A stretch of DNA of 23,166 nucleotides from positions 1 through 23,166 of IMG/VR virus record IMGVR_UViG_3300049783_000096; one strand, 5' to 3'. Within the stretch, counting starts at the first letter, position 1. Every line of letters begins with the position of its first letter. Source of the stretch: a virus. A model generated the notes under the pieces. The model searched no databases and was not told where the DNA came from. It saw only the letters and a program-made list of their open reading frames with translations. Shown piece by piece: positions 1 to 18,174 of this stretch. The position numbers and the translations under genes were made by a program.

Positions 1-1112
1 GTTACAGTTTCTAATAGTTTATGCTGTTTAACCATCGGGTATTCTAATACTTCTGTTTTCATTTGTTCTAAACGTGCTATTACTTTTGCTTTTAGTTCTG
101 GCGGCAATACTTGCGCACTTAGACTCATAGGATAGTTTACTCTGTGCGAGTAAAATATAATCCCCATTTTGTTAATAAAGTGGTCAATAACTTTGTCTAT
201 CTGCATAATGTTATTTGCTTGTACAGTAAATGCACCAACTACACGACTTACATTAGGAAAGCTCTTAAACACTTCGATGTTTTCTTCTATTACACTAAAT
301 TTACCATTGCCCCTAATGTATTCATACGTGTCGTATACACCGTCTATGCTTACGTTTACAGCTATGCTTTTAAACTTAGGCCAATAGTCGTGGATTGTTC
401 TACCGCCTTTAATGCCCAGCGTAGTACCGTTTGTAGCGTACTTTAGTTCAATGTTGTCGCCGTACTCTGCAAGTTTGTCTAGTATCTTATAATGGTATGG
501 ATCCATTAGAGGCTCACCGCCTGCAAACTCTACACGCCTAAAGAACGGTAGTAGTTTTTCAAATGACGTCCACCAATTGTCTGAGTTATCAAATGGACCA
601 ATATATTGTCCGGGTGTGTCTACTAGTGCATTAACAGTTGGTATTAGATAGTTGTCTTCTTTCTCGTAAAATTTAGTTACTTGTCCCCAGTCTTTCCAAC
701 TTGTACTGTCCAAGGGATTGCACATACGGCACTTTAAATTGCACAAGTTATTGAGCTTAATTTCCATTGTAGGAAACTCAAAAGGCATGCTATAATCATC
801 GTCTAAAGCGTCTAGTGCATCAGGGTATAAGTTGACCCTTGCTTCGGGTATTACTCCTGCTGTATGACGCTGTCGTAAGCTCTCTACACCCTGATCTTCA
901 AGGTCAAAGCATGGTTTACATACGTCTGGACGCTCACTATTAAGTACTTGTCTACGTACTTCTTTCATAGCATCGTTGTTCCATGCTTCTTCTAGGGTTT
1001 CTTTTTGTATCCAGCCAATGGGTTGACTACGGCAACATACTTTGATAGCACCGTCTTCTCGTGTAGCAAGTCCTGTAAAAGGATGCATACAAAATGTACA
1101 ACTCTTAGACAT
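1..1112 (-). CDS. Radical SAM protein with N-terminal Cys-rich (SPASM/twitch-like) segment, partial
   Basis: The frame is open from the ATG at 1112 down to the left edge, so the C-terminus is missing (about 370 codons seen). The core has the CxxxCxxC cluster motif (C124, C128, C131 in NNLCNLKCRMC) followed by AGGEPLMDP, the SAM-binding GGEP motif. Before the core there is a Cys-rich segment (C5, C8, C26, C27, C65, C68) that looks like a SPASM/twitch auxiliary-cluster domain, unusual in lying N-terminal. Members of this group reductively cleave SAM to start radical chemistry, often on peptides; the substrate here is unknown. It overlaps the end of the QueC-like gene by 8 bases (ATGTCTAA), so the two are probably translated as a coupled pair. 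The radical SAM assignment is firm and the specific function is not. Confidence 0.88.
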   Translation of the reverse strand, partial: MSKSCTFCMHPFTGLATREDGAIKVCCRSQPIGWIQKETLEEAWNNDAMKEVRRQVLNSERPDVCKPCFDLEDQGVESLRQRHTAGVIPEARVNLYPDALDALDDDYSMPFEFPTMEIKLNNLCNLKCRMCNPLDSTSWKDWGQVTKFYEKEDNYLIPTVNALVDTPGQYIGPFDNSDNWWTSFEKLLPFFRRVEFAGGEPLMDPYHYKILDKLAEYGDNIELKYATNGTTLGIKGGRTIHDYWPKFKSIAVNVSIDGVYDTYEYIRGNGKFSVIEENIEVFKSFPNVSRVVGAFTVQANNIMQIDKVIDHFINKMGIIFYSHRVNYPMSLSAQVLPPELKAKVIARLEQMKTEVLEYPMVKQHKLLETV

Positions 1113-1779
1113 TATCTATTCCCCATTGACGTTCTTTGCACCAAAAACATTCACCACAGATTGGAACATCTTGTCCAGGGGTATATGTTGTATAATTCAA
1201 ACCTTCAAACTCTCCTTCACAACTACGAGTAAGATCTAGTAAATCTTCAATATTATTTTCATAGTACTGGCGTATAATCCAATCCTTTTTAGTATACACG
1301 AAAGGATGACATATGTCAACTCCATTATGCACAAAATGCGGAGCAATATGGCCTTCATCTCGTTCTGCAACCTTGCCAGGAATATCTATATCTGGATTCA
1401 TATTTACGCCGCCGTATAACGCATCTAAGTTGTATTGGTGTGCAATGTATTCGTTGTGTGAACGCAATATAATTCTATTACCTGATTTCATTTTGCCATA
1501 CTCGTCTTTGATAAGATAATCAGTAGGCTCTTCTAATTCAGGTGGCACCAAATTTTTATGTACTATAAAGTTATTATTAAACCTGTTTTTAAACCAATCA
1601 ATTACGCCATCGGCAACAGGCCCTTGCCATGGTCTTGTTTTCCAGCAACGTATTTGTGAAGTAAAATGTATATCAGCACTAGTTTGAGAACAAATTAAGT
1701 AAGCAAGTATTGCACTATCAGCGCCGCCACTAAGACTGATTCCTATGCGTTTCCACTGTTGGTTCAGATACAAGTTCAT
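1105..1779 (-). CDS. QueC-like PP-loop ATP pyrophosphatase
   Basis: A 224-residue protein with the N-type ATP pyrophosphatase P-loop SGGADS (residues 17-22) and a C-terminal four-Cys zinc site: C187, then C208, C211 and C214 in CGECFWCKER. That layout is like QueC, which converts 7-carboxy-7-deazaguanine to preQ0 with ATP and ammonia. The spacing between the first Cys and the CxxCxxC is about 20 residues, longer than I expect for typical QueC. With FolE and QueE elsewhere in the window, a preQ0 role is plausible. Another PP-loop adenylation (amide- or thio-transfer) linked to the neighbouring radical SAM gene is also possible. No Shine-Dalgarno sequence precedes the ATG; an octamer CATAAATA ends 5 bases upstream of it. 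No other ATG precedes the P-loop. Confidence 0.72.
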   Translation of the reverse strand: MNLYLNQQWKRIGISLSGGADSAILAYLICSQTSADIHFTSQIRCWKTRPWQGPVADGVIDWFKNRFNNNFIVHKNLVPPELEEPTDYLIKDEYGKMKSGNRIILRSHNEYIAHQYNLDALYGGVNMNPDIDIPGKVAERDEGHIAPHFVHNGVDICHPFVYTKKDWIIRQYYENNIEDLLDLTRSCEGEFEGLNYTTYTPGQDVPICGECFWCKERQWGIDNV

Positions 1780-1784
1780 GCAAA

Positions 1785-1792
1785 TATTTATG
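1785..1792 (-). promoter_or_regulatory. T4-type late promoter octamer CATAAATA for the QueC-like unit
   Basis: Minus-strand CATAAATA matches the T4 late consensus TATAAATA at 7 of 8 bases. By the T4 rule (octamer at -13 to -6) transcription would start on the A of the ATG at 1779, giving a leaderless mRNA. Inferred from position only. Confidence 0.5.
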
Positions 1793-1793
1793 T

Positions 1794-1801
1794 ACTAAAT
1801 A
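1794..1801 (+). promoter_or_regulatory. Late-promoter-like octamer ACTAAATA for the 1834 gene
   Basis: Plus-strand ACTAAATA lies one base from the opposite-strand octamer, forming a divergent pair. It is 32 bases upstream of the ATG at 1834, which has a GCAGGA ribosome site. It matches the late consensus less well than its partner. Confidence 0.35.
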
Positions 1802-1833
1802 TTTTATAATAGATATTACTGGCAGGATTTACT

Positions 1834-2502
1834 ATGCTACATACATTACCATATACTGTTGATTCAACACTTCTTAATGAAGCACAGGGTTCTGTTCCGG
1901 CTGTAGAATCTAAACTAACAATTAATCAACCAACCGGCAATTTCTTTTACGATCCGTGGGAAATTAAAGAAGAATTTAAAGGCACAGTTTGGGAGACTCT
2001 TTTAAACACATTGCCTTTGGATATCGGCGAAGCAAGAATTATTGTACTTGGTAACGGAACAACCTATATGTCGCACACTGACATTGATGATAGATACCAT
2101 CTAAGTCTTAAAGGACAATATTCTTTTTTAATTAATGTAGACGATGAGAAAATGTATCCTACAGTAGCAGACGGACAATGGTACGAAATGAATACTGGTC
2201 TACGTCATGTAGCAGCAAATTTTGGATCGTACGATCGAGCCCAACTTGTTGTAAGAAAACTTTTAAATAATCCAACTTTAGAAAATTACACAACTGTAAC
2301 AATTAAGCCAATATGTGAAAATCCTAGATTTGAATTTGATGATTTGATTAGTCCATTGTTAAATAAAATAAACAAACAACAGTTAATTAATGACTTTAGT
2401 ATTTTACAAGATGGTGTTTCATTTAATCTAAACATCAATGCTATAAATGAACTAGACAGTATAGACCGTAATAAATTTAATATCCAATTATGTGAAACAT
2501 AA
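1834..2502 (+). CDS. Aspartyl/asparaginyl beta-hydroxylase-like Fe(II)/2OG oxygenase
   Basis: A 222-residue protein with the signature of the Asp_Arg_Hydrox family: H81-x-D83 followed by R87 and H89 (HTDIDDRYHLSL), then H125 (GLRHVAAN) and R135 (DRAQLVV). H81, D83 and H125 would bind Fe(II); the Arg residues would bind 2-oxoglutarate. Family members hydroxylate Asp, Asn or Arg side chains in proteins, or sometimes free substrates; the target here is not known. The oxygenase part covers about residues 65-142; the last 80 residues are AT-rich in coding and unrecognised. The ATG has a ribosome site (GCAGGA) about 7 bases upstream. Its 3' end overlaps the convergent oxygenase gene by 26 bases. 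Fold assignment is fairly sure; substrate class is inference. Confidence 0.75.
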   Translation: MLHTLPYTVDSTLLNEAQGSVPAVESKLTINQPTGNFFYDPWEIKEEFKGTVWETLLNTLPLDIGEARIIVLGNGTTYMSHTDIDDRYHLSLKGQYSFLINVDDEKMYPTVADGQWYEMNTGLRHVAANFGSYDRAQLVVRKLLNNPTLENYTTVTIKPICENPRFEFDDLISPLLNKINKQQLINDFSILQDGVSFNLNINAINELDSIDRNKFNIQLCET

Positions 2503-3028
2503 ACTTTGGGGTCATGCCTGCGTTAATGCCGCTATGCCATTCGTAATAATTATTCCAATGGAATAATGATCCAGCCGGACAGTTATACAAATAATCTTGA
2601 CCTAGCATAAAAATATGTCCAAGAACTTTATTACCTAGTGACATACTGTAGCGTTTGATTTCGCCCTGTTTTAAATATTCTTGTTCGTGGTCATCTACGT
2701 CCCAGTGCCAAGGTGCATAATATCCGGGGTCAACTCTACTAATCCATGCACGATGCACACCTTTTAAATTTAAATGATCTGCAACATCATCAACAAACTC
2801 TTGTGGAAAATGTTCGTTGGGATAATAGTTTGTCCACTTCATAGCATTGGTATTAAAATTAGCCTCCTTCCAGATAGTATGTATCTTTCCGTATTCGCTA
2901 TTATCTAAATTCCAACGACTTGGATCGGTGGTAACATCTGAGCCTTGTTTGTCTTTTAATGATGTTGTTAGATCTTTGTGATTATAAACATTAACAAACG
3001 TACAGCTCTTTAAATTATTGTGGTCCAT
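2477..3028 (-). CDS. Small Fe(II)/2OG oxygenase-like (double-stranded beta-helix) protein
   Basis: A 183-residue protein. The C-terminal half carries H108-x-D110 (PWHWDVDD), a GHIF strand at 137-140, AGSLFHW at 152-158 and the second His H165 (EWHSGINAG), followed by K175. This is the iron triad and fold order of 2OG-Fe(II) oxygenases, with Lys in place of the more common 2OG-binding Arg. It aligns motif for motif with the protein at 4872-5396 (PG..., HxD, RY, GHIF, AG.L..W, HG/HS..N.G), so the two are paralogues or members of one subfamily. No Shine-Dalgarno precedes the ATG; an octamer-like GATAAGTA ends 5 bases upstream. Substrate unknown. The triad makes catalytic activity likely; a cupin-type sensor is the alternative. 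Confidence 0.7.
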   Translation of the reverse strand: MDHNNLKSCTFVNVYNHKDLTTSLKDKQGSDVTTDPSRWNLDNSEYGKIHTIWKEANFNTNAMKWTNYYPNEHFPQEFVDDVADHLNLKGVHRAWISRVDPGYYAPWHWDVDDHEQEYLKQGEIKRYSMSLGNKVLGHIFMLGQDYLYNCPAGSLFHWNNYYEWHSGINAGMTPKFMFHIIGY

Positions 3029-3040
3029 AAGTATACTTAT
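3027..3040. repeat. 14-base perfect palindrome ATAAGTATACTTAT
   Basis: The palindrome spans the start codon and upstream region of the minus-strand oxygenase gene. A near copy of one arm recurs at 3057-3065 before the plus-strand gene. It may be an operator or a by-product of the mirrored promoters. Confidence 0.5.
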
Positions 3041-3041
3041 C
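3034..3041 (-). promoter_or_regulatory. Late-promoter-like octamer GATAAGTA for the 2477-3028 gene
   Basis: Minus-strand GATAAGTA is followed by TACTT and then the ATG at 3028. It forms an inverted pair with GATAAGTA on the plus strand at 3056. It deviates from TATAAATA at two positions, so it could instead be a regulator half-site. Confidence 0.4.
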
Positions 3042-3055
3042 GCTTGTAAATGTAT

Positions 3056-3063
3056 GATAAGTA
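3056..3063 (+). promoter_or_regulatory. Late-promoter-like octamer GATAAGTA for the 3069 unit
   Basis: Plus-strand GATAAGTA, then TAGTT, then the ATG at 3069: the same 5-base spacing as on the opposite strand at 3028. No Shine-Dalgarno lies between, so a leaderless transcript is predicted. Confidence 0.4.
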
Positions 3064-3068
3064 TAGTT

Positions 3069-3764
3069 ATGAATACAAGTAATTGGAAATATTATTACAA
3101 AAGAACAGCTGATCATGTAACATCATCATCTAACATGTTATATACAGCCTTAATGAATCCAACTAACGATATTTTATGTAAACATTATTGTATCAATGAA
3201 GATTATCAAGGCCATCAGCCTGGTATGACACAAGAGATAGTTGATTTCTTTTTTGAAAGAGAAGTGCGATTTTTAGAAGAGTTACAATATTTAAGTTGCA
3301 CTCCTAAACTTCTCAAAGTGGATCGTGATAATAATAAAGTTTTTATAGAATGGAATACAGAAACATTATCGCAGATAGTATTTGATCCAAACAGATCAAT
3401 AGATGACGAATTTCCTAATTGGAAAGATGAATTGTATAGCGTTGTAAAAGAATTTAAAAATAGTAAACATTATAAATTAGCACTCTATCCACATTGTTTC
3501 TTTATAAACAAAGACGGTATTTTAAAAATTATTGATTATTACTCAGTTGTACCGCATGACGATTATTTTATTGAAAGAAAATTAATTGCAGGCATGATTG
3601 GAGACGAAGGATCTTATAGGTTTGACCAATCAGAAAATGACGGCGTAATCGATCTCAAAAATTTCTTTAATCTTACAATGAACATACACTTGCCAAAGTG
3701 TTGGCCTAACTGTCCATTTCCAAATATTTTTCAAAATCTTTATAATACACTAAAGGAACATTAA
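3069..3764 (+). CDS. Kinase-fold-like protein, paralogue of 8861-9541
   Basis: About 231 residues from the ATG at 3069. The frame is open further upstream, but the N-terminus here (MNTSNWKYYYKR) lines up with the related protein at 8861. Near residues 140-159 it has YPHCFFINKDGILKIIDYYS, resembling the catalytic-loop-to-DFG stretch of aminoglycoside-phosphotransferase/RIO-type kinases (HP..F..D G.LK.IDY). The catalytic-loop Asp is not evident, so it may be a pseudokinase or a divergent small-molecule kinase. An earlier FEREVRFLEEL helix and a KVFIEW strand fit the N-lobe. The radical SAM gene begins 1 base after its stop, which implies an operon and a shared pathway. Function is unproven. Confidence 0.6.
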   Translation: MNTSNWKYYYKRTADHVTSSSNMLYTALMNPTNDILCKHYCINEDYQGHQPGMTQEIVDFFFEREVRFLEELQYLSCTPKLLKVDRDNNKVFIEWNTETLSQIVFDPNRSIDDEFPNWKDELYSVVKEFKNSKHYKLALYPHCFFINKDGILKIIDYYSVVPHDDYFIERKLIAGMIGDEGSYRFDQSENDGVIDLKNFFNLTMNIHLPKCWPNCPFPNIFQNLYNTLKEH

Positions 3765-3765
3765 A

Positions 3766-4875
3766 ATGTTTTCGTTTAACAAATTGTCTCAGATACAAAT
3801 AGAAATTACAAATAGGTGCCAAGCTAGTTGTCCTATGTGCTTACGAAATATTCACGGCGGAATTGAAAATCCTCTACTAAAGTTAAATGACTGGACATTA
3901 GATCAGTTTAAAACAATATTTAATAAAGAAGTACTTGCGCAAAATAAACATATAAACTTTTGTGGAGACTTTGGTGACCCTATTATTAATAACGATCTAA
4001 TAGATATGTGTCGATATGTAAAAGATAATAGTGTAGCAAGTATAAGCATAAGCACTAACGGTAGTGCAAGATCAGTCAATTGGTGGACCCAATTAGCATC
4101 AGCATTACCAGCTGAACATAACATAGAATTTGCACTAGATGGATTAGCAGACACACACCATCTTCATAGAATAGGAACATCGTACGATGCAATTATACGC
4201 AATGCTTCTGCATTTATTAAAGCCGGCGGCAATGCATCTTGGATGTTTATTAAATTTAAGCACAACGAACATCAATTGGACGATGCTAGACAACTATCTT
4301 CTGACTTAGGATTTACTTCATTTAACTTTAAAACTAGTAAACGATTTGGAAAACCATTTCCGGTATTAGATAAAAAAGGTAATACTGCTTACTATATAGA
4401 ACAGCATTCTAACAGCGATATAAACCCTGTAGAATTTAATGATTTAAAAGATTATAAAAAGTGGGAAGTAGATGTAAGTTGTTTTGCACACGAATCTAAA
4501 GAACTATTTATAGATGCACACGGTCATCTAATGCCGTGTTGTTTAATAGCTTCGTTTTTATACGCAAATTACGATACAAAATTACATAGTAAATATAATC
4601 TATTAGATAAAACATCTATTGTAAGTCTTGCTAAAGAAGTACAGGACGAAGTTTATAATTTAATTAATGAGTTTGGTGGATTAGATAGCCTAAACGCTAA
4701 TATACATGGCATTAAACATATTATGGATCAACCTGTTTGGCAAACACTTATTCATAAAAAATGGAACGAACATTCTTCCTCTCCATGTAAAATACTTTGC
4801 GGCAAGTCTTCGCCGTATATAAGGATAGACGAACAGCTTAATCGAGATAATATCTCGATAATCGAGATAATTTAA
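3766..4875 (+). CDS. Radical SAM protein with SPASM-like C-terminal Cys domain
   Basis: A 369-residue protein. The N-terminal core has CxxxCxxC at C18, C22 and C25 (NRCQASCPMC), then FCGDFGDP (residues 65-72) in the place of the GGEP motif, and ISTNGS at 95-100. The C-terminal part has C239, C258/C259 (MPCC), C341 and C345, consistent with a SPASM/twitch domain holding auxiliary Fe-S clusters. Such enzymes often modify peptides or proteins, by cross-link, epimerisation or thioether formation. The substrate here is unknown. It follows the kinase-like gene by one base. Its stop shares TTAA with the stop of the convergent oxygenase gene at 4872. No candidate precursor peptide lies next to it. 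Confidence 0.87.
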   Translation: MFSFNKLSQIQIEITNRCQASCPMCLRNIHGGIENPLLKLNDWTLDQFKTIFNKEVLAQNKHINFCGDFGDPIINNDLIDMCRYVKDNSVASISISTNGSARSVNWWTQLASALPAEHNIEFALDGLADTHHLHRIGTSYDAIIRNASAFIKAGGNASWMFIKFKHNEHQLDDARQLSSDLGFTSFNFKTSKRFGKPFPVLDKKGNTAYYIEQHSNSDINPVEFNDLKDYKKWEVDVSCFAHESKELFIDAHGHLMPCCLIASFLYANYDTKLHSKYNLLDKTSIVSLAKEVQDEVYNLINEFGGLDSLNANIHGIKHIMDQPVWQTLIHKKWNEHSSSPCKILCGKSSPYIRIDEQLNRDNISIIEII

Positions 4876-5396
4876 TTGTGAAGAGTAATTTGTAAAGTAA
4901 GCCTAGTATTATACCCAATATTAGCAGGTCCGTGTATACATTCAGGATCACTCCACTCATACAAATCGCCTGCCTTATAGTTAGACAACATTTTATCGTC
5001 ATACGCAAATATGTGGCCCGGCTCCCAGTCTTGTAAAAACATTGTATAACGTACAAAGTTGCTAACTTCAGTTAAGTGTGGATCAATGTGCATTGCTTGA
5101 AATTCACCGGGATATAACTTTACAAACCACCACGGCGAATGTTTTCTAGTTTCTGGCAGTTCAGGATATACAAAATCGTATCCTTCCATTTCTGGTGATC
5201 CTGCGTTAAGTTGATGAAAGAAAAATACATTCTTTGAATATCCAGGCCTTGCCATTTCTTTAAACTTTTCTAAAGTCTCGTTTCCGGTCCACCGATCTGG
5301 TTGCCATACTGGAGTTGTTTCGCCTTGCTTACTGTTTAACATATCAATAATATTATGTTCAGCGATCCAGTTTGCGTAATTACCTATATAATTCAT
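4872..5396 (-). CDS. Small Fe(II)/2OG oxygenase-like protein
   Basis: A 174-residue protein with H103-x-D105 (AMHIDPH), RY at 116-117, GHIF at 127-130, AGDLYEW at 142-148, H155 (IHGPANIG) and R165 (TRLTLQI). This is a complete iron triad plus a 2OG-binding Arg, so it is a better match to an active oxygenase than its relative at 2477-3028. About 100 residues precede the motif and may be a substrate-binding portion. The 3' end shares the TTAA stop with the radical SAM gene at 3766-4875; the 5' end is divergent from the radical SAM gene at 5459. The start is the first ATG after an AAGA-type ribosome site. The natural substrate cannot be read from the sequence. Confidence 0.75.
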   Translation of the reverse strand: MNYIGNYANWIAEHNIIDMLNSKQGETTPVWQPDRWTGNETLEKFKEMARPGYSKNVFFFHQLNAGSPEMEGYDFVYPELPETRKHSPWWFVKLYPGEFQAMHIDPHLTEVSNFVRYTMFLQDWEPGHIFAYDDKMLSNYKAGDLYEWSDPECIHGPANIGYNTRLTLQITLHN

Positions 5397-5421
5397 TTCT
5401 TAATACCACTCTTTCTTGGTG

Positions 5422-5429
5422 CATAAATA
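5422..5429 (+). promoter_or_regulatory. T4-type late promoter octamer CATAAATA
   Basis: Plus-strand CATAAATA, 7 of 8 to consensus, lies 29 bases upstream of the ATG at 5459. It directly abuts an opposite-strand ACTAAATA. Confidence 0.6.
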
Positions 5430-5437
5430 TATTTAGT
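5430..5437 (-). promoter_or_regulatory. Late-promoter-like octamer ACTAAATA for the 4872-5396 gene
   Basis: Minus-strand ACTAAATA is 33 bases upstream of the ATG at 5396 and directly abuts the plus-strand octamer. The two promoters face each other, so their transcripts would overlap slightly at the 5' ends. Confidence 0.35.
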
Positions 5438-5458
5438 GAATGTACTAAAAGGAATGAC

Positions 5459-6940
5459 ATGAATCGACACTGTATATTATTCAACGACAACCAACTAAAA
5501 GCAAGACGGGCTAGTGGAGCCTATCGTGTTGCTAATCTACTTGAGCGTCTTGGATGGACTGTTGATGTTATTGACTGGACTAAAAGTTGGCCTGAGGATA
5601 AACTATACGAATATCTTGACAAGAAAGTTAGCGACGATACTCTAATGTTTGGCTTTAGTTATACTTGGATGCAACCTCAATGGACACAGCAATTTATAAT
5701 TGATCTCAAACAGCGTTATCCGGGCCGCAAGTATCTTGCAGGTGGACAACAATTCTATCAATATGATATAGGTTGTGACGCTATGCTTTACGGCTATAGC
5801 GAAATGGTTATAGAGAATATATTAACATGGTGGTTTGAAAACGGTGATGCACCTCACGGAACACGCCCTATTGGTCTAGGAGGAGGACTTCTTATAGACT
5901 GTAATAGTACATATCCGGCTATGGGCCTAGAAGAATATAGTGTACAATATGCTCCAACAGATAGCGTACAGTCTCATGAGCAGCTCACTATAGAACTTAG
6001 CAGAGGTTGCAAATTTGCATGTAAATATTGTAATTATGCATTTCTTGGTATTAAAGAAGATACTAGTACTTGTGAAGAAAATTTACGCAACGAGCTTATG
6101 GAAAACTATAATAAATGGGGAGTTACTAACTATGTTATAGCAGATGATACTCTCAATGATCGAGAAACTAAGTTAGAAATGTTAGTACGAGTAGTTGAAA
6201 GCCTGCCATTCAAGCCTAACTTTAGTGCATTTATACGTATTGATTTAGTAATTAGTAAACCTCAACAAATGGAAATGTTAAGCCGTGCAAGAGTATGGGC
6301 ACACTTTTATGGTGTAGAAACATTTCACCCAGCCGCAGGTAAAGCCGTAGGCAAAGGAATGTCTCCTGATCGTATCAAACAAGGATTGATGGACATGCGC
6401 AAACATATGATGGATACGCTAGGTTTATACAGAGGTACTTTGGGAATGATAGCAGGCTTGCCACACGAAACACCAGACAGTTGGCAAACATCAGAAGATT
6501 GGCTTCGAGACAATTGGAGTGATCAGTGTTGGTATTGGTGGCCACTTGAAATAAGTACAGACACTAACACATTAACTACTAGTGTGTTTAGTAGAGAGTG
6601 GAAAAAACATGGCTACAGAGCTATAACAGACAACACTCAAATTCAAGAAATAGACAGTAAGTTTAACAAAACTAAAACAAATGTGCAACACAAATTTGAT
6701 AACAACAGTCTTATGTGGACAGCTGACTGGGCCGATATAAATCAAGCTACTAATTTCTGCACACAGTTTCAAGAAGGGTTTCATAAGAAATCAAAAAAAC
6801 TGTCAAACTTTGCAATACTAAGCGTTATTAATGACATAGGATACGAAAAAATCTTAGAAATGTCAGACGAAGATTTTCGTGGTAGTGAGGTAGATGCCGA
6901 GGTCATAGAACTTTATATTAAAAATAAGATGTCTTTTTAA
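5459..6940 (+). CDS. B12-binding-domain-type radical SAM protein
   Basis: The ATG at 5459 was chosen because AAAAGGA lies just upstream and the late octamer sits at 5422; the frame extends further up, but across that promoter. The 493-residue product has an N-terminal alpha/beta Rossmann-like region (about residues 15-125: ANLLERLGWTVDVIDW, LMFGFSYTW, YLAGGQQF) typical of cobalamin-binding class B radical SAM enzymes, though the DxHxxG base-off motif is not seen. CxxxCxxC follows at C184, C188 and C191 (SRGCKFACKYC), then ADDTLND and a TIM-barrel-like core with GMIAGLPHET. Relatives include methyltransferases and ring-rearranging enzymes. Whether it uses cobalamin is uncertain. Its stop shares TTAA with the convergent oxygenase gene at 6937. 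Confidence 0.85.
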   Translation: MNRHCILFNDNQLKARRASGAYRVANLLERLGWTVDVIDWTKSWPEDKLYEYLDKKVSDDTLMFGFSYTWMQPQWTQQFIIDLKQRYPGRKYLAGGQQFYQYDIGCDAMLYGYSEMVIENILTWWFENGDAPHGTRPIGLGGGLLIDCNSTYPAMGLEEYSVQYAPTDSVQSHEQLTIELSRGCKFACKYCNYAFLGIKEDTSTCEENLRNELMENYNKWGVTNYVIADDTLNDRETKLEMLVRVVESLPFKPNFSAFIRIDLVISKPQQMEMLSRARVWAHFYGVETFHPAAGKAVGKGMSPDRIKQGLMDMRKHMMDTLGLYRGTLGMIAGLPHETPDSWQTSEDWLRDNWSDQCWYWWPLEISTDTNTLTTSVFSREWKKHGYRAITDNTQIQEIDSKFNKTKTNVQHKFDNNSLMWTADWADINQATNFCTQFQEGFHKKSKKLSNFAILSVINDIGYEKILEMSDEDFRGSEVDAEVIELYIKNKMSF

Positions 6941-7746
6941 TAGTTCTCTATATGATCTATGCCCAAAGTTTTACGGAACTCTTGTGTAAACTTACCGTCA
7001 ATGCGTAATGCATAACTTTGTTCCATAATGCGCTCTCCGCCATGCCAATCTTGGTCATTCCACCAAGCTGCTCTAGTATTAAGATATGTTTTATTTTTAG
7101 TTTCGGGGTCCCATAAATAAAATGCTTTCTTAGTATTAGGACGAATATGTATAAATTCGTTATTGTGTGGAAATGATTCGTTCATTCCGTTTTTAGCATC
7201 GAGGTCTCTGTGTTCAAACGGAACACCGTCTGCTTCGCAATGAAAGAATATAACACGACCAATGTGTTCAAATATATTGTCTTTAATTAATTGTTCTGTC
7301 CATTTTACTGTTTCAGGAAAATGTTGTGCTTCTTCTGTTAGCTTACGTTCTGCTGTTCTATCGTCCCAAGACCCTTCTTCCCAAAGGAAATAATAAATGT
7401 AAGGATCATATGCACCTAGGGCCATTTTTAAGTAACGTGTAAAAACGTTACGTTGTTTGTAATTGCCAAAGTCTGAAGGCATAAGTTTCATCCCTTCAAT
7501 CTTAATAGGATTGTCATCTGCTAGTAATTGAAATTCTTCTAATGCTTGATAGATAGGTTTCCAATTTAACGTATAGCTCATATCTTCAAAAGTAAATCCA
7601 GGAGCCATCCATGTGCCTTCTTTAGCAAACTCTCTTGCCGCTGCAAAGCCATGCATTATTTCTGGTTGTAATTTTTCAAAAGTTTCCATATCGAGATACT
7701 TTTCCATATTAAAATATGGTCGACTATTAATTCCTTTAATTGCCAT
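6937..7746 (-). CDS. Fe(II)/2OG oxygenase-like protein, larger type
   Basis: A 269-residue protein with H179-x-D181 (FEHRDLD), a strand IHIRPNTKKAFYLWD at 199-213, H235 (DWHGGER) and R248 (YALRIDG): a full iron triad and 2OG Arg in the order of a double-stranded beta-helix oxygenase. The first 160 residues, rich in aromatic residues, are unlike the two smaller oxygenases here, so this one probably came separately. It is the downstream partner of the Tes-like radical SAM gene, overlapping it by 11 bases, and the two are likely co-translated. Substrate unknown. The fold call is moderately sure because only the motifs support it. Confidence 0.68.
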   Translation of the reverse strand: MAIKGINSRPYFNMEKYLDMETFEKLQPEIMHGFAAAREFAKEGTWMAPGFTFEDMSYTLNWKPIYQALEEFQLLADDNPIKIEGMKLMPSDFGNYKQRNVFTRYLKMALGAYDPYIYYFLWEEGSWDDRTAERKLTEEAQHFPETVKWTEQLIKDNIFEHIGRVIFFHCEADGVPFEHRDLDAKNGMNESFPHNNEFIHIRPNTKKAFYLWDPETKNKTYLNTRAAWWNDQDWHGGERIMEQSYALRIDGKFTQEFRKTLGIDHIENY

Positions 7747-8797
7747 AATTCTTTATCCATTCTTCAGGTATAGTATCGGGCAGCATTTTTCCATTATTTA
7801 CTGCGTGGTCTCTTAGTATAACTTGATGCACTAACGGGCTAGGCGGCTTGCCGGGAAGTATATCAGCTATTGCTTCTGTTTGCATCTCACTCAAGTCTAG
7901 CGTTTTAACATCTGGCCATTGAATAAGCTTTACTACTATTCCGTTAATTTCAACAGGATAGTGTGCCCTAATGCCTTGTTCGGGTCTAGGTATAAAGCTC
8001 CAGTTATTTTTTTCTGCAATTGCTTTTGCACGTTTAACTAATTCACTTAGGTACATTTTATCTTGATCAGGGCATCTACCTATTTCAGTGCCTACTCGAA
8101 TTCTATATAGGCTGCAATATTTTTTTACGTCATTAAATTTTTGTATTTCAGATAGACAGTATTCTAATTGATCAAATCCTTCAAGAGTATAACTAATATT
8201 TTTTATTGACAATCCCATTGCTACACAATTATCTAACCCTTGTTCTTGTTTTCCTCGTACAGTATGCCCTTGATAGTCAGGATGATTAAGTCCAACTGTA
8301 AAATGCACATTATCAAATTTTGTAAATTGACTAGCGTAATCAATTCTACCTAATTTAACACCGTTAGTTAAAATCATAATACCACGAGGTTTTCCAGGTA
8401 GTGCTTGTATAGCTTCTATTATTTCAGGCAAGTCTTTCCTTACAGTTGGCTCTGCTCCTACTAACGAAAGAGGATACCCGTCATCGGGCCAAGATTTAAT
8501 CGTTGTTAATATTGATTGTATTGCTGGATCGATAGATCTACTATCAGGTTCTTGATAACAATGCGGACATGCTAGATTGCATTTATTAGTTGTCTCTATA
8601 AAATAACTAGATAACGGGTGTCTTGGATAGTTGTAATTTAAATAAAACTCTGCATCAGGTTCTACAAGATGCTCGACATACCCGTGTTCGGAACATGTTT
8701 TACTTAACCATATCTGGTTATCTCTTTCAAATCGTACTGCTGGTACATGTCGATAACATTGTTCACAAACCGATAACGTATCTTTAAGTTTTCTCAT
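7736..8797 (-). CDS. Radical SAM protein resembling the Tes/MJ0619 family
   Basis: A 353-residue protein. The N-terminus has a zinc-finger-like module: C11-x2-C14, VPA, then C35 and H38 (KTCSEHGYVEHLVEPDAEFY), very like the opening of the Tes (tetraether lipid synthase) and MJ0619 (methanopterin methylase) group. The core motif is C73, C77, C80 (NKCNLACPHCYQEPD), followed by GAEPTVRKDLPEII (114-127), which matches that group's GGEPT(V)R.D signature with Ala for Gly. The family forms C-C bonds at unactivated carbons using a second SAM or lipid radical. The phage substrate is unknown. It is the first gene of a two-gene minus unit and divergent from 8861. Family resemblance is by motif memory, not a search. 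Confidence 0.82.
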   Translation of the reverse strand: MRKLKDTLSVCEQCYRHVPAVRFERDNQIWLSKTCSEHGYVEHLVEPDAEFYLNYNYPRHPLSSYFIETTNKCNLACPHCYQEPDSRSIDPAIQSILTTIKSWPDDGYPLSLVGAEPTVRKDLPEIIEAIQALPGKPRGIMILTNGVKLGRIDYASQFTKFDNVHFTVGLNHPDYQGHTVRGKQEQGLDNCVAMGLSIKNISYTLEGFDQLEYCLSEIQKFNDVKKYCSLYRIRVGTEIGRCPDQDKMYLSELVKRAKAIAEKNNWSFIPRPEQGIRAHYPVEINGIVVKLIQWPDVKTLDLSEMQTEAIADILPGKPPSPLVHQVILRDHAVNNGKMLPDTIPEEWIKNYGN

Positions 8798-8826
8798 TAA
8801 GTACTCACTTTTTAATTATATACTCA

Positions 8827-8834
8827 TATTTACC
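8827..8834 (-). promoter_or_regulatory. Late-promoter-like octamer GGTAAATA for the 8797 unit
   Basis: Minus-strand GGTAAATA directly abuts the plus-strand TATAAATA at 8835. It is a weaker match than its partner. Confidence 0.3.
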
Positions 8835-8842
8835 TATAAATA
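8835..8842 (+). promoter_or_regulatory. T4 late promoter, exact consensus TATAAATA
   Basis: Exact octamer on the plus strand. Predicted transcription start is about 8848, where the strong ribosome site AAGGAG (8848-8853) begins, 7 bases before the ATG at 8861. Confidence 0.75.
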
Positions 8843-8860
8843 TCAGTAAGGAGCAATGTT

Positions 8861-9541
8861 ATGGAGTATTATTGGAACAACGTGCCAGGTGCTGGACTTT
8901 GTAGGAACAATTTAATCTATACTAGTTTAATTAGCAAAGACGAAAAAACATTTTGTCAATGGTATTACAATGATGAAAAGTATCATGGTGGCCAAAATCA
9001 AGTAGTTGATGCTACCCTAATGCAAGAAAAATTTGATAGAGAAGTCGAATACTTGCTACTCATGCAACAGAATTATCCGCAATATATTCCAGAAATTATA
9101 GATATAGATATAGAAAAGAGAAAAGTATATCTAAGAATACAAGGTCCTGACTTTTGGGAACTTGCAGGTTGCGATCAAGAAAACTATGATAACGTATTAC
9201 CAGATTGGCAAGAACAGATGCTAGACATAATTCAAGCACATAAGAATCTAGGTATTTACAAATACAGTATGCACCCTAGTAGTTATTTTGTAGTAGACGG
9301 TAAGTTAAAAAGTATTAACTACTTCTTTGCGTATAATGAACAAGAGGGGCCTATTAGTATAGCAGATCACTCTAGTCATATTTACAGTACACGCCAAGAA
9401 GAAATGCGTAAACATATTGAATCATTAGGCATTGAGTGGGATACTCCTCAACCTTTAGACTTATTAGAACAACTATGTTGGGAAAGTTTTAGAAAAAACT
9501 ATCCTAACGACTTTATAGAGAAAGCTAAATGTATAAAATAA
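8861..9541 (+). CDS. Kinase-fold-like protein, paralogue of 3069-3764
   Basis: A 226-residue protein that aligns along its length with the product of 3069-3764: N..LIYTSLI..., FDREVEYL (58-65), KVYLRI (88-93), LPDWQEQMLDII (113-124), and MHPSSYFVVDGKLKSINYF (137-155). The last segment resembles a kinase catalytic loop and DFG strand, but the metal-binding Asp is Asn153 here and the HxD Asp is missing. A catalytically dead or repurposed kinase fold is the best reading. The start at 8861 is preceded by AAGGAG; an ATG at 8856 is out of frame. It overlaps the GNAT-like gene by 13 bases. Confidence 0.6.
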   Translation: MEYYWNNVPGAGLCRNNLIYTSLISKDEKTFCQWYYNDEKYHGGQNQVVDATLMQEKFDREVEYLLLMQQNYPQYIPEIIDIDIEKRKVYLRIQGPDFWELAGCDQENYDNVLPDWQEQMLDIIQAHKNLGIYKYSMHPSSYFVVDGKLKSINYFFAYNEQEGPISIADHSSHIYSTRQEEMRKHIESLGIEWDTPQPLDLLEQLCWESFRKNYPNDFIEKAKCIK

Positions 9542-10062
9542 TTCCTTGGAATAAAGACTTAGACTTAACAGACTTTTACAAAGAAGCTGAAAAAAGAGGA
9601 TTTGTAAATAACGCTAGTCAAAAAGCAATGATAGATTGTTTTCGTAATGAAGAAGAATGGCAAGTTTGGATATTATATTATAATGACCGTGCTGTTGGCA
9701 GTGTAGCTGCTCATAGTATAGAAGAAGGGTATCGCATATGTACAAGAACATGTGCATTTACTGATCTAATGCCAGTTGTATCTACAAGAACACGTACAGG
9801 AATTATTACGCATCAACATGTTACAGCACAATTTTTTATGCCTGCTTGTATTGAATGGGCAAAAGAACCAATGTATATTACAACACATCCTAGTAAAGTA
9901 GGAACACAACGACAAGTACATACTATATGGGGACCAAGTCTAGAAAAGACTGGAGTTCTTACAAAAGATTTTGAAAAAGACTATCGAGGTCATGTACAAA
10001 CATTTTGGAAACTAAACACTGATGTGTTTTTAGATCAACTAAACAAATACCCTAAATGGTAA
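9529..10062 (+). CDS. GNAT acetyltransferase-like protein (weak)
   Basis: A 177-residue protein. The stretch VWILYYNDRAVGSVAAHSIE (about residues 46-65) resembles GNAT strands beta2-beta3 with the G.V/G.I turn, and a helix-rich C-terminal half follows. The canonical acetyl-CoA pyrophosphate loop (Q/RxxGxG/A) is not clear; TRTRTGIITHQH at 86-97 is the nearest basic-glycine stretch. It is translationally coupled to the kinase-like gene (13-base overlap), so the two probably act together. Its stop lies 2 bases from the stop of the convergent tail fibre gene. It could equally be an unknown phage protein. Confidence 0.5.
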   Translation: MYKIIPWNKDLDLTDFYKEAEKRGFVNNASQKAMIDCFRNEEEWQVWILYYNDRAVGSVAAHSIEEGYRICTRTCAFTDLMPVVSTRTRTGIITHQHVTAQFFMPACIEWAKEPMYITTHPSKVGTQRQVHTIWGPSLEKTGVLTKDFEKDYRGHVQTFWKLNTDVFLDQLNKYPKW

Positions 10063-10064
10063 TA

Positions 10065-11120
10065 TTAGTTTAAGTCAACCCAAGCAGCACCAGTGTAACC
10101 TTGGAACTTAGTTCCAGTTGTGTTAAACACCATCATGCCTGCTGTTGGAGTTGGAATAGCTGCATCACGTGCTGCATCATCTGCATATCTACCAGGAGTA
10201 ATAGCACCTTCTGCTTTAAACTCGCCACCTAACCCAAACATGTATGAATTGTATGTACCACTACCTGCACCAATAATAAGACTTGCAGTAGATTTTGGAA
10301 AATCATCAGTGATATCGGCATCAGCTGCAAGTTCCGTAATCATTAACGCTGTAACTTTTCCTTCTGCAGAAACAGCATCATACGCAGATATCTTCCAACC
10401 ACCTACTATCTCTCCTGCTAAAACTGAAGTTGGAGTAGTAGTTGAACCCTTAACAGAAAGGAAATCTGTGTAAGGAAATCCGCCGTTAGCACCAGTAGTA
10501 ACCGCAGTTATCTGTAATGGTACTCTGTTACCGTTGTTTAAAATAATAGGACTAAGTGCAGTATTTGGAGCAATTGTATCTAAAGTAATTCCTGGTGTAG
10601 TAACAGTACCGTCAGTACCGTCAATAATTCGTGAACTGTCATCGCCAAATACGCTACCAGTTACATCGCCTGTAATGTTAATAGGGTATGTAGCACCGTC
10701 AATTAATCCACCTGATACATCTGTACCATTTACCCAGCCAGCACCGTCATATTTTAATACTTGTCCTACTGTAGGAGTACTAGATATTGTATCTACGTCT
10801 TGTAGTGCATTAATTGATTTGTTTGATAGTACAGTTGGATCGCCTGGCATCCAGTGAGTCATGCCTTGATCCCAAACTAATGCTTCACCATCACTTGGAA
10901 CATGTCCTGCACTTGTAGTATCAACATCACTTAAATTATTTATATTTAAATCGGAGTTAGCAACGTCCACCGCAATACCACCTGTTGTAGACCCATCGCC
11001 TACATAAAGTTTCTTAGTATCTGTTGTATATATTATTTCGCCTTCAGCTGGCACTGGCAAAGCGGCACCGTCAAGTGTTAACCTTTGTGCATCTGTGCCT
11101 CTTCTTAATCGTAAAGCCAT
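10065..11120 (-). CDS. Phage tail fibre / receptor-binding structural protein
   Basis: A 351-residue protein. The N-terminus MALRLRRGTDAQR...PAEGEIIYTTDTKKLYVGDG matches the Mtd N-terminal (tail-fibre anchoring) pattern of RRGT...GEI..T.DT..L..GDG. Two internal repeats follow: residues 59-93 and 103-133 share N.L.DVDT.S...G..L.wD....W..G. The C-terminus (GMMVFNTTGTKFQGYTGAAWVDLN) is the kind of end common in marine T4-like fibres. It has its own late octamer at 11155 and an AGGAG ribosome site, fitting a virion gene. Its place next to the enzyme island makes it a candidate target of those enzymes, but this is inference. Confidence 0.8.
   Translation of the reverse strand: MALRLRRGTDAQRLTLDGAALPVPAEGEIIYTTDTKKLYVGDGSTTGGIAVDVANSDLNINNLSDVDTTSAGHVPSDGEALVWDQGMTHWMPGDPTVLSNKSINALQDVDTISSTPTVGQVLKYDGAGWVNGTDVSGGLIDGATYPINITGDVTGSVFGDDSSRIIDGTDGTVTTPGITLDTIAPNTALSPIILNNGNRVPLQITAVTTGANGGFPYTDFLSVKGSTTTPTSVLAGEIVGGWKISAYDAVSAEGKVTALMITELAADADITDDFPKSTASLIIGAGSGTYNSYMFGLGGEFKAEGAITPGRYADDAARDAAIPTPTAGMMVFNTTGTKFQGYTGAAWVDLN
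10722..10946 (-). repeat. Two protein-level repeats within the tail fibre
   Basis: Residues 59-93 and 103-133 share the pattern N.L.DVDT.S....G..L..D....W..G, about 44 residues apart. Such repeats are common in fibre shafts and can be gained or lost by recombination. Confidence 0.6.
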
Positions 11121-12385: not shown

Positions 12386-12632
12386 TGTACTTCAAATGTG
12401 GACAAGCTAACATGAAATAACTTGCTTCTTTTGGATCTTCAAATGCTACTTTGAGATGATCCTTATCACGCGAAAGGTAATATCGATTCCTTAGATTTTC
12501 ACAAATCCATTTATCAACAGCACTTTGCATGTTGTATCTTTGTTGTAAGGACACTACTTCGAAGTGCCTAGGGCAATAAGGAGTCTGTCTTACACCAAAA
12601 AAGTTTAATGGATTAGGCTTCTTGAGCTTCAT
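12381..12632 (-). CDS. Small basic protein of unknown function
   Basis: An 83-residue protein without a recognised motif. It is basic and aromatic, with a single CPRH and a late ACPHLKYK; two Cys and two His could form a small metal site, but the spacing does not match a known finger. It overlaps the end of the VWA gene by 20 bases and has GGAG about 12 bases before its ATG, so it is read from the VWA unit's promoter. Existence is supported by the tight packing and the lack of any other frame here. Confidence 0.6.
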   Translation of the reverse strand: MKLKKPNPLNFFGVRQTPYCPRHFEVVSLQQRYNMQSAVDKWICENLRNRYYLSRDKDHLKVAFEDPKEASYFMLACPHLKYK

Positions 12633-13902
12633 AATGTGCTGTTACTCCAAATGGTGCTTGTAGGTTCTTATCGTGATGACTGTGTATTACAAATACTGTA
12701 TCACAGTAATCAGGATCACCCCAGCTATCCCATGCATATCCATCAGTGAACATTAAGAACTTTTTAGGCGCAATACCTTCTTGTTCCATATATGTCCAGT
12801 TACACATAAAGTCAGTGCCGCCACCGCCCATAATTTCATAATCTGTTAAGTCGTCTCCGCAATCGGCACTATAGTCTTGCTCGTTATAAACCTTAGTATC
12901 AAAGCACCACAATTTAATATTGTAGTCTTTGTACTCGTCCATAATGCCTTTTACTTCACTTAGGAAGTCTCTGCCTTGTATATCACCAATTGACCCACTC
13001 ATGTCAATTGCAATACAAAGATCTATTGTTTCAGCAAAATTCATACCTGGTAGTATAGCACCACTCATTTGTCCTTTGCGTGAAGGACGACTAAATGTAT
13101 AATCACTTTTAATAGTTGATTGTATTTGCTGACGTAGTATTTCACGCCAGTTCATTTTAGGCTCTGTAAGATCTTTAATTAATCTATCTACGCCTTTAGG
13201 AATATTGCCAGCACCTGCACTTTGTGCTGCTGAAACCATATTCTCTTTAATTTCGTCACGTATCTTTTTAAGTTCTTCTTTTGTATAAGTTGGACGTCCT
13301 TCACCATCTTTGTCGCCTTTCGGACCTTTGTTAGATTCGTTATCGCCGTCAGTCCAGTCAAGGTGTTCGTCTAATAATTCACCTAGTTGTTTAAGCTCGT
13401 CTTCATCATACTTTTCAAACAAGTCGTCATAAACTTCTTCTGAAGTCCAGTTTTCGTATTTAAAGTCTTGATAACATTCGACTAGCTTAGGCTTATGGCC
13501 AATGCTATCTCGTACAAGTATATTGTTTACAACGTAGTCTTGTGCAATGTTAGACAGCATAGCGTCTAAGTTACGGTCTTGCCATGTTCTACGTTCTAAG
13601 TGATCAAATACACAATGTAAAATTTCGTGTGCAATAACAAACTCAACCTCTTTATTATCCATTGAGTTAAAGAACTGAGTGTTGAAGTATAAGTTTCGAC
13701 CATCTACAGCCGCTGTGCCTAACCAATCATCTGCACTTTTAATTTGTAAACGTGTAGCCATATTACCAAAGAAAGGATGCTTTAGTAGTAAGCCTACTCG
13801 TGCAACGATAATGCGATCTAGAACTTCTACACGCATTTCAGCTAATGCTTCTGGAGTAATGTCTGGATCTGGTTGCCAGTGCTTCTTACCTTCTACGCTC
13901 AT
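12613..13902 (-). CDS. VWA-like metallopeptidase domain protein (partner of MoxR ATPase)
   Basis: A 429-residue protein with two parts. The N-terminal part has a zinc-peptidase motif HEILHCVFDH (92-101; HExxH plus a third His). The C-terminal part is a von Willebrand A-like domain with MIDAS elements DMSGS (300-304), GGGGTDF (359-365) and FTDG (385-388). A charged, Gly/Asp-rich linker lies at about 183-205. This combination is known as a putative metallopeptidase with a VWA-like domain, usually beside a MoxR-type AAA+ ATPase, as here. The pair probably forms a chaperone-like complex that remodels or inserts metal into a target. It has its own sigma-70-type promoter and an AAAGGA ribosome site. 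Confidence 0.85.
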   Translation of the reverse strand: MSVEGKKHWQPDPDITPEALAEMRVEVLDRIIVARVGLLLKHPFFGNMATRLQIKSADDWLGTAAVDGRNLYFNTQFFNSMDNKEVEFVIAHEILHCVFDHLERRTWQDRNLDAMLSNIAQDYVVNNILVRDSIGHKPKLVECYQDFKYENWTSEEVYDDLFEKYDEDELKQLGELLDEHLDWTDGDNESNKGPKGDKDGEGRPTYTKEELKKIRDEIKENMVSAAQSAGAGNIPKGVDRLIKDLTEPKMNWREILRQQIQSTIKSDYTFSRPSRKGQMSGAILPGMNFAETIDLCIAIDMSGSIGDIQGRDFLSEVKGIMDEYKDYNIKLWCFDTKVYNEQDYSADCGDDLTDYEIMGGGGTDFMCNWTYMEQEGIAPKKFLMFTDGYAWDSWGDPDYCDTVFVIHSHHDKNLQAPFGVTAHYEAQEA

Positions 13903-13931
13903 CTGCTATGTCCTTTCTAATTTATATAACT

Positions 13932-13960
13932 ATTATACTAGATTCTGAGTTGTTTGTCAA
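13932..13960 (-). promoter_or_regulatory. Sigma-70-type promoter for the VWA gene
   Basis: Minus strand: TTGACA (13955-13960), 17 bases, TATAAT (13932-13937). Both hexamers are exact consensus with the optimal spacer, so the host RNA polymerase should read it. Confidence 0.88.
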
Positions 13961-13971
13961 CCACAAAAGGT

Positions 13972-13998
13972 GATAGAGCGAGTTAAACTCGCCCTATC
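13972..13998 (-). terminator. Stem-loop after the MoxR gene, probable terminator
   Basis: GATAGGGCGAG and CTCGCTCTATC pair over 11 positions with one G-U, around a 5-base loop, 8 bases after the stop at 14006. Downstream in the transcript is ACCTTTTG, a weak U-tract. In the plus direction the stem is followed by TTTTT, so it may act both ways. Confidence 0.65.
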
Positions 13999-14005
13999 TT
14001 TTTGC

Positions 14006-15094
14006 TTAAGAACCCTGTGCAGCCTTAATGTACTTACCATAACGTTCATGGAATTCATCAAAGCATTCAACAGCGTCTGGATCAATGGGCAATGAGTACT
14101 GAGTAAGTGCGAGCTTAATGCCCATTACAACTAATTCAGTATCAAAGTTATCCATTGAAAAGCGCAGGAAATTGTTGACTTTCTTATCGAAGTCTTTGTC
14201 ACGTTTCTTATCAGCTTCTTGTAGCTCATAACACAATGACACAGTGAGGGAATACATAGCACTGATTTCTTTACTGGCCATCTCCGTAACTTTTCCTGCT
14301 AAAATATCAGTTGGATTAGGCATCCTTGACGCAACCTTGCGGTGTGCCATAAACTTGACAGCCAAGCCTTCTCCTACTGATCCACTTACTAAGTCTGTAG
14401 TAGTGGTTTCGTCTAGCTCGTCTTCAAGCAATTCGCTTACAAACGACCATGAACGGGGTGTTGCAAAAGAACGTGACGAACTACGTGGATCGAAGTCGTA
14501 CAAGTCTTTCTTTGCAAAAGTCAAGTATCCTACAACATCTTTGTGGATGTTGTTATCAACAGCCCACTGGAACCAGTCACCGAAGTCAACTGTAAGTTCT
14601 AAGTGGATAAAACGGTTTGCTAACGGAGCAGGCATTCTATACGTAACGCCTTTGTCAGCTTCTCTATTACCAGCAGCAACAATCATTACATTGTCTGGTA
14701 ACTTGTAAGTTCCTACACGACGATTAAGAATTAGCTGATATGCAGCCGCTTGCACACTTGGTGCCGCTGAGTTCATTTCGTCTAAGAACAATACAATGTG
14801 ATCGTATTGTGCAGCAAACTCTTCTGTTGGAAGTTCGCTAGGTGCGCCCCACACCATTGTACCTGAGTTGCTGTCGAAGTATGGAATACCTTTAATATCT
14901 GTAGGTTCCCAAAGCGACAAGCGAATGTCAATTAAATGCGAGTTTGAAAACCCGTCTGTAATTTGTCCTACAATGTCAGACTTACCAATACCTGGAGGCC
15001 CCCACAAAAAGATCGGACGCTTCTTCTTAAGAGCATGCTTGATGCTATTTTTTGCGCCGTTCGGTGAAACCGTTCTAGTGATTGTATTTTCCAT
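14006..15094 (-). CDS. MoxR-type AAA+ ATPase
   Basis: A 362-residue protein with Walker A GPPGIGKS (32-39), Walker B VLFLDEMN (101-108), sensor-1 IVAAGN (138-143) and the PLANRF arginine (157-162), in the order of the MoxR branch of AAA+ proteins. These ring ATPases work with VWA-domain partners to remodel or activate target proteins; the VWA/HExxH gene directly downstream is the obvious partner. A hairpin and a new promoter lie between the two genes, so each also has its own transcription. The start ATG has GAGGTAATACAAG upstream and its own sigma-70-type promoter. Confidence 0.9.
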   Translation of the reverse strand: MENTITRTVSPNGAKNSIKHALKKKRPIFLWGPPGIGKSDIVGQITDGFSNSHLIDIRLSLWEPTDIKGIPYFDSNSGTMVWGAPSELPTEEFAAQYDHIVLFLDEMNSAAPSVQAAAYQLILNRRVGTYKLPDNVMIVAAGNREADKGVTYRMPAPLANRFIHLELTVDFGDWFQWAVDNNIHKDVVGYLTFAKKDLYDFDPRSSSRSFATPRSWSFVSELLEDELDETTTTDLVSGSVGEGLAVKFMAHRKVASRMPNPTDILAGKVTEMASKEISAMYSLTVSLCYELQEADKKRDKDFDKKVNNFLRFSMDNFDTELVVMGIKLALTQYSLPIDPDAVECFDEFHERYGKYIKAAQGS

Positions 15095-17760: not shown

Positions 17761-18174
17761 TTAAGATACTTCGCTTTTGCCTTTATCGATTGGCACTACA
17801 TTAATGTAGCCCGCTTGTGCATCTGTTGATTGTCCTTCTTCACCAAGCATTTGCCTAATTAAAGTTTGGAACCAAGCATCTACAATAGCTTCATTTGTTT
17901 CGCCTTTGTATCCTGCATCAAGAAGTTGTTCAATAAACTCATTATTCCAATCGATCTCAAAGAAACCGTTCTTTATGTCATCTGGATTAATTTGTGTATC
18001 TAGTACAGCAACCCAAGGCTTGCCTTGTTTAGTTGCTTCAACTTTCTCTGATTCAAGTGCTTCACGTCGAATATCTTCGGATGTCTTTTTAGTATTAGTA
18101 TACCCTTCGACTTCGTCTTTTAATATCTTAGGTTGTACACCTAATGCTTGTTTTATTTTATTCCAGTTACTCAT
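17761..18174 (-). CDS. Unknown phage protein
   Basis: A 137-residue acidic protein; the middle section GKPWVAVLDTQINPDDIKNGFFEIDWN followed by a helix LLDAGYKGETNEAIVDAWFQTLIRQML looks conserved by memory of marine T4-like genomes. No enzymatic motif is seen. It overlaps the 35-residue frame upstream by 4 bases (ATGA), placing it last in the FolE-QueE unit. Confidence 0.7.
   Translation of the reverse strand: MSNWNKIKQALGVQPKILKDEVEGYTNTKKTSEDIRREALESEKVEATKQGKPWVAVLDTQINPDDIKNGFFEIDWNNEFIEQLLDAGYKGETNEAIVDAWFQTLIRQMLGEEGQSTDAQAGYINVVPIDKGKSEVS

Follow-up and report, generated by a model that had tools for sequence, protein, structure and literature searches.

The first 10,062 bases of a linear IMG/VR virus record of 23,166 bases (the window, which denotes the record at its full length) comprise twelve tightly packed genes, g01 to g12, in eight strand units, including genes for radical S-adenosylmethionine (rSAM) proteins and for proteins that resemble Fe(II)/2-oxoglutarate (Fe/2OG) oxygenases. 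These genes make up the rightmost third of an island, which is cut at g01 by the left window end and reaches about three times the size of the window's part in relatives. The island is inherited as one locus with a constant core and a variable shell, and its carriers are a single uncultivated lineage of very large T4-type phages. We tentatively interpret it as a late-expressed tailoring island of the host-recognition-cluster type, which would place a variable decoration on the virion or a surface component. Islands of this kind are known and functionally unexplained; the core of this lineage and its density of enzymes are new.

A co-inherited locus with a constant core

The open reading frames, strands, overlaps and eight units reported for bases 1-10062 in a first-pass annotation were all borne out. 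IMG/VR contains at least 174 relatives of g09, the island's hallmark gene; the best 80 are 73-95% identical to it. Homologues of g01-g12 cluster around g09 in nearly all of the best relatives, and over 80 contigs contain the gene set; genes and gene starts in the relatives were called mechanically, and their contigs are fragments. Co-occurrence was counted over the 58 g09 loci whose flanks both extend for at least 7 kb. Genes of the g05/g11 type are present in all 58 of these loci, g12 in 53, g10 in 50, g04 in 48 and g03 in 45. When g12 serves as the anchor (80 loci), g09 is found in 66 loci and g11 in 68, directly upstream of g12 in 67; many of the 14 loci that lack g09 are short contigs or represent a variant island. 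The same set around both anchors reveals one co-inherited locus, as the annotation had proposed, and related phages do not carry the genes singly at scattered sites.

Seven islands are covered end to end. They span 23-45 kb, hold 7-14 rSAM genes and 5-11 Fe/2OG-type genes, and each contains g09, g12, g03 and g04 in exactly one copy, together with two genes of the g05/g11 type; a PP-loop gene of the family that includes g02 (PPl) is present in six of the seven. The carrier contigs give 7-15 rSAM matches each in 29 of 30 cases, as compared with 11 in CP220, 6 in Vibrio phage K566, 4 in Phosso, 2 in Mosig, 1 in PBECO4, and none in PA5oct and Vibrio phage 2.275.O among the named-phage controls. 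In the 85.7-kb contig G001, whose g09 is 93% identical, the island extends over ~41-78 kb and is flanked on one side by a structural block with a gene for 5,185 amino acids (aa), and on the other by a fibre-like gene followed by g15-g24. Most of g14-g35 come after the island in the 357-kb contig G032, in the same order as in the window.

The accessory enzymes are exchanged gene by gene, even among close relatives. Comparison with the relative L011 reveals that g11 is 100% identical while its overlapping operon partner g12 is 53% and g10 is 75% identical, that g06 is missing, and that g08 has been replaced. The dN/dS values of the island genes against the relative L006 (85-99% identical) are 0.03-0.18, which indicates purifying selection. 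Islands of other relatives contain Trp halogenase, class III aminotransferase, TauD, 2OG-FeII_Oxy_5, AMP-ligase, FkbM and further methyltransferases, GDSL hydrolase and hexapeptide transferase, and an amidinotransferase family is present in some. The island of a near relative carries a clear NAD-dependent epimerase/GDP-mannose-dehydratase-like gene (E 5e-46), together with GT8-like proteins whose best PDB match, glycogenin, is weak (E 0.19). The statement that there is no glycosyltransferase or sugar enzyme is true of the window's part and was dropped for the whole island in view of these genes.

T4-type gp23 is encoded by seven carrier contigs (80-357 kb, two of them identical to each other), and shares at most 72% identity with that of named phages (Phosso, Vibrio phage 2.275.O, Asteriusvirus). 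Its mutual identity of 76-86% shows that the carriers constitute one lineage. No match to g08, g09 or g11 was found in 50,697 named phages, nor was g09 detected when 84,980 bacterial and archaeal genomes were scanned with a pattern; the core accordingly marks a single uncultivated lineage, which has no cultured member and whose relatives occur in hundreds of IMG/VR contigs. The idea of a module that hops between unrelated phages, to which the rarity of the backbone genes g14-g24 near the island had pointed, was rejected on account of the gp23 common to the carriers, and is also countered by the synteny of the window's right flank in G001 and G032. A bacterial origin was likewise rejected, as the pattern scan detected no g09 in genome contigs.

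Core and accessory proteins

The constant core, once set apart from the variable shell, narrows the candidates for functional tests to a few proteins. The annotation had recognised four rSAM proteins in bases 1-10062, and all four have PF04055 matches, that of g06 slightly below the curated cut-off, and retain the CxxxCxxC motif, which is present in 96-100% of the full-length members of five rSAM families. g01 (3..1112, - strand), whose 3' end is cut by the left window edge, has an N-terminal SPASM/twitch region and matches N_Twi_rSAM (NF033640) with 295.5 bits against a cut-off of 170. g06 (3766..4875, +) is SPASM-like, and g08 (5459..6940, +), which is accessory and exchangeable, is a B12-type, PhpK-like rSAM protein with a weak B12-binding match. 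g10 (7736..8797, -) combines an HMPTM-type N-terminal zinc ribbon with the rSAM domain, is closest to TrsS/Tes, and occurs in 0-3 copies in relatives. A fifth rSAM protein of the window, QueE (18262-19158), is situated off the island. The assignment of g02 (1105..1779, -) as a PP-loop ATPase is supported by its motif and a QueC-like Cys-rich C-terminus, whereas its profile matches are all weak (phrog_1550, E 1e-7).

Four oxygenases had been proposed as well. The HxD...H...R/K pattern is present in all of them, whereas the Pfam cut-off is reached by g03 alone, with a marginal match to Asp_Arg_Hydrox. These are g03 (1834..2502, +), which resembles Asp/Asn beta-hydroxylases, g04 (2477..3028, -; HxD...H), g07 (4872..5396, -; HxD...H...R), which is often duplicated in relatives, and g09 (6937..7746, -). 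The HxD/E...H iron triad and the distal R/K are found in every full-length homologue of the four. The structural model of g09 (pLDDT 84) finds its best structural matches in L-proline cis-4-hydroxylase, PHD2 and AspH, although at TM-scores of only 0.3-0.4; the protein is predicted to adopt the double-stranded beta-helix fold of an Fe/2OG oxygenase, and the oxygenase motif holds up on modelling. For accessory families with no Pfam match the term oxygenase is motif-based only, and 2OG-dependent turnover is a prediction for all of the oxygenase-like proteins. The pairing of oxygenase and rSAM genes described for the window is not generally kept, as g09 adjoins g10 in ~46% of loci and a pseudokinase or another oxygenase in the remaining ones.

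The model of the core protein g11 (8861..9541, +; pLDDT 92) has the kinases Ark1 and Bud32 as top PDB matches, and its matches in a viral structure library are also protein kinases. g05 (3069..3764, +) is a distant paralogue, ~20% identical to g11 and in the same alignment as the modelled protein. Profile alignment with TTK reveals that the HRD Asp and the catalytic Asn are replaced by HPSS in the g11 type and by YPHC in the g05 type, and the DFG Asp is additionally lost in g11. A catalytic-loop-like motif is left in 1 of 154 g05/g11 homologues and gone in 153. The two proteins called kinase-like in the annotation thus share the fold of small protein kinases such as Bud32 and Ark1 but, unlike these, lack catalytic residues, and because of these losses g05 and g11 are probably pseudokinases. 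The label GNAT-like for the core protein g12 (9529..10062, +) is putative, since Pfam and PDB searches gave no match. The right boundary of the island is formed by g13 (10065..11120, -), which is tail-fibre-like (phrog_677, phrog_9627).

Late-type promoters, comparable islands and possible function

The late promoter motif is NATAAATA in cyanophage S-PM2 and TATAAATA in T4 (PMC2984593). The pattern [TC]ATAAATA precedes 71 of 260 unit-heading genes; the corresponding figure is 10.9 for shuffled sequence, and 6 of the 627 inner genes are preceded by it. The NATAAATA sites are intergenic in 28 of 39 cases in G017 and 29 of 44 in G018, where uncalled sequence amounts to just 3-6%, and they precede large structural-block genes and island units alike. 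In the window, a TATAAATA late-promoter-like box (8835..8842, +) is located 26 nt before the start of g11, with an AAGGAG ribosome site in between. A CATAAATA late-promoter-like box (1785..1792, -) precedes g02; it is weak on its own because only ~5 nt separate it from the called start codon. The island genes probably share a promoter type with the virion genes and are expressed late.

The statement in the annotation that no system with this set has been described goes too far, because islands of the same kind are known in CP220/CPt10 and in pelagimyophages; rSAM-packed islands have been known in T4-type phages since 2010, with no function. The genomes of the Campylobacter phages CP220 and CPt10 carry 11-12 rSAM genes; overall identity between the two phages is 96%, yet entire rSAM/amidinotransferase clusters distinguish them (PMC2853527). 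They are likewise T4-type, with an exchangeable and functionally unexplained rSAM module upstream of the tail fibre. Profile searches identified in CP220 homologues of accessory families of the present lineage, namely g06-type and c3-type rSAM proteins and amidinotransferase. In contrast, no oxygenases and no homologues of g09, g05/g11 or g12 were detected in CP220/CPt10. In pelagimyophages, the host recognition cluster includes rSAM cassettes (PMC7029224). Pelagibacter phage Mosig EXVC030M, of the pelagimyophage-cyanomyophage cluster, is T4-type and has a large hypervariable island with tail fibres; homologues of the TauD, AspH, g06, c3-type rSAM, pyridoxal phosphate (PLP), GDSL, short-chain dehydrogenase/reductase and methyltransferase families were found in it by profile search. 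Nevertheless, it lacks g09, g05/g11, g12 and the twitch-rSAM family, and gives 2 PF04055 matches, in contrast to 7-15 in most carrier contigs. Pelagimyophage clusters also have more glycosyltransferases than the island described here. The features of such clusters that are present in this lineage are a T4-type gp23 backbone (seven carriers) and a hypervariable island at the boundary of structural and fibre genes.

Sinorhizobium phage Phosso (PV764938.1), which has the closest named gp23 (72%) and S. meliloti as its laboratory host, carries its own rSAM cluster (at about 185.3-192.4 kb) beside a virion structural gene and a baseplate gene; the cluster is small, its rSAM homologues are remote, and the core families are absent. 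We also note that this cluster encodes a 306-aa protein, XYS97446.1 (L215:18415-19335, -), which ends in DYCHTSCHASCHSSRSRR, a Cys-repeat tail that resembles the tails of radical SAM peptide substrates. Vibrio phage K566 (L208; 255 kb; seawater and oysters) has a cluster with five twitch-type radical SAM genes and is possibly a further accessible system.

A fixed core and a variable shell, late-type promoters, and a site between the structural block and a fibre-like gene together point to a decoration made late, with a common base and a variable finish. The constant core (g09, g03, g04, the two pseudokinases, g12, several rSAM proteins and usually the PP-loop ATPase) would make a common modification or scaffold, the pseudokinases would serve for docking or as scaffolds, and the changing set of rSAM, oxygenase, methyltransferase, PLP, halogenase and acyl transferase/hydrolase enzymes would then diversify the core product. 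Expression would be late, via the promoter type of the virion genes, and the product would be displayed in the adhesin or tail-fibre region, most likely as a modified side chain or an attached sugar-like group; its variability would be an advantage when receptors change or competitors are present. The sugar-nucleotide epimerase/dehydratase and weak GT8-like genes of the near relative suggest that the product may be a sugar. We infer a single pathway and a target on the virion surface, which we favour over host surface, small molecule and DNA on evidence that is not decisive. Several observations weigh against this interpretation. Relatives encode Trp halogenase, aminotransferase, amidinotransferase and AMP-ligase, whose usual substrates are small molecules and not proteins; the tail fibre beside the island is conserved only in part, and the decorated substrate is putative. 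The basis for late timing would be indirect; the exact TATAAATA count within the window alone is at chance level and distances from box to start are approximate because start codons were taken mechanically.

The same sugar-related genes are shared by a reading that we hold to be unlikely though serious, in which the island alters the host surface through sugars on lipopolysaccharide or capsule and blocks superinfection, as proposed for the pelagimyophage clusters. The epimerase/GDP-mannose-dehydratase-like gene and the weak GT8-like proteins of the near relative fit it, as do the hexapeptide acyltransferase and GDSL hydrolases in relatives' islands and the richness of pelagimyophage islands in GT8 (PMC7029224). 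Nevertheless, glycosyltransferases are assigned only weakly, sugar enzymes are absent from the window's part of the island, and late-type promoters are a poorer fit; host glycan and virion glycan are not told apart by the data. It is doubtful that the site is a hot spot near fibres where unrelated auxiliary or selfish enzymes accumulate with no single pathway: replacement of genes one by one, duplications and the differing accessory sets are what such a site would give, whereas the constancy of core copy number in the seven islands and across the g09- and g12-anchored loci, and purifying selection, are not.

Production of a diffusible natural product or ribosomal peptide seems quite improbable, even though SPASM/twitch rSAM, B12-rSAM, halogenase, amidinotransferase and AMP-ligase are enzymes that characterise natural-product clusters. 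Neither a transporter nor a carrier protein or peptidase was seen, and no precursor of a ribosomally synthesised and post-translationally modified peptide is present in the island, which is too densely packed to leave room for one (median of -7 nt over 1,416 island intergene gaps, 10 of them above 100 nt). An island-encoded peptide is an unlikely substrate, and so is DNA. Hypermodification of phage DNA bases, to which QueE (18262-19158) and FolE (19155-19838) and the QueC-like g02 could be related, is considered highly improbable: QueE and FolE lie ~8 kb off and outside the island, the island has no base-modification kinase or DNA-modifying domain, and the fold of g09 is closest to proline and Asp/Asn hydroxylases. 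A defence system was rejected, as PADLOC gave just weak cross-matches within the rSAM superfamily (pVip, PDC-M51A). A collagen-like fibre as the target of a prolyl hydroxylase was also rejected, since G017 has short GXX runs only.

If the product of the tailoring island is indeed a virion decoration, phages would vary adhesion by chemistry besides protein sequence, and such islands would represent a large reservoir of oxidative enzymes that is yet to be tapped. A more far-reaching proposal, to which we give little credence, is a combinatorial pathway in which the fixed core, with its two pseudokinase docking proteins, would modify virion proteins, and exchangeable rSAM, oxygenase and halogenase modules would give phage-specific non-canonical chemistry at the virion tip. 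Such a pathway would be the chemical counterpart of fibre tip switching.

Other genes in the window and in relatives

A protein of 670-880 aa, S670, is encoded beside many islands, for example at L096:15631-17643 (G017) and L102:4820-7456 (G018), and has 431 relatives in IMG/VR; the copy searched had no match in named phages. Its C-terminal motif C[NY]CDCW is kept in 78 of 78 complete copies (alignment A4), while the protein is only ~50% identical. S670 was considered as the modified substrate and not kept, because its tail does not vary and no homologue is present in seven island-bearing contigs (G001, G003, G007, G026, G031, G032 and G034, some of which are fragments).

An Rfam search of the window gave no match. 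At 12613-15094 (-), a VWA-type protein with an HExxH motif, labelled HNH endonuclease in PHROG, adjoins a MoxR-like AAA ATPase that is 50% identical to the ATPase of PA5oct. QueE and FolE form a tandem (18262-19838, -) that is syntenic in G032 and comprises possible genes for 7-deazaguanine DNA modification. A 169-aa open reading frame (18171-18680, -) shares sequence with the 3' part of QueE in a different frame and has no homologue in the first loci examined. In G017, several proteins encoded at 121859-142174 have glycine-rich C-termini that end in a GGSGIVVIRYLYQ-like sequence, apparently a repeated tail or fibre domain. The truncated open reading frame at the right end of the window (22560-23165, -) has no Pfam or PHROG match and is glycosyltransferase-like by eye only; a homologue with 64% identity is present in G032.

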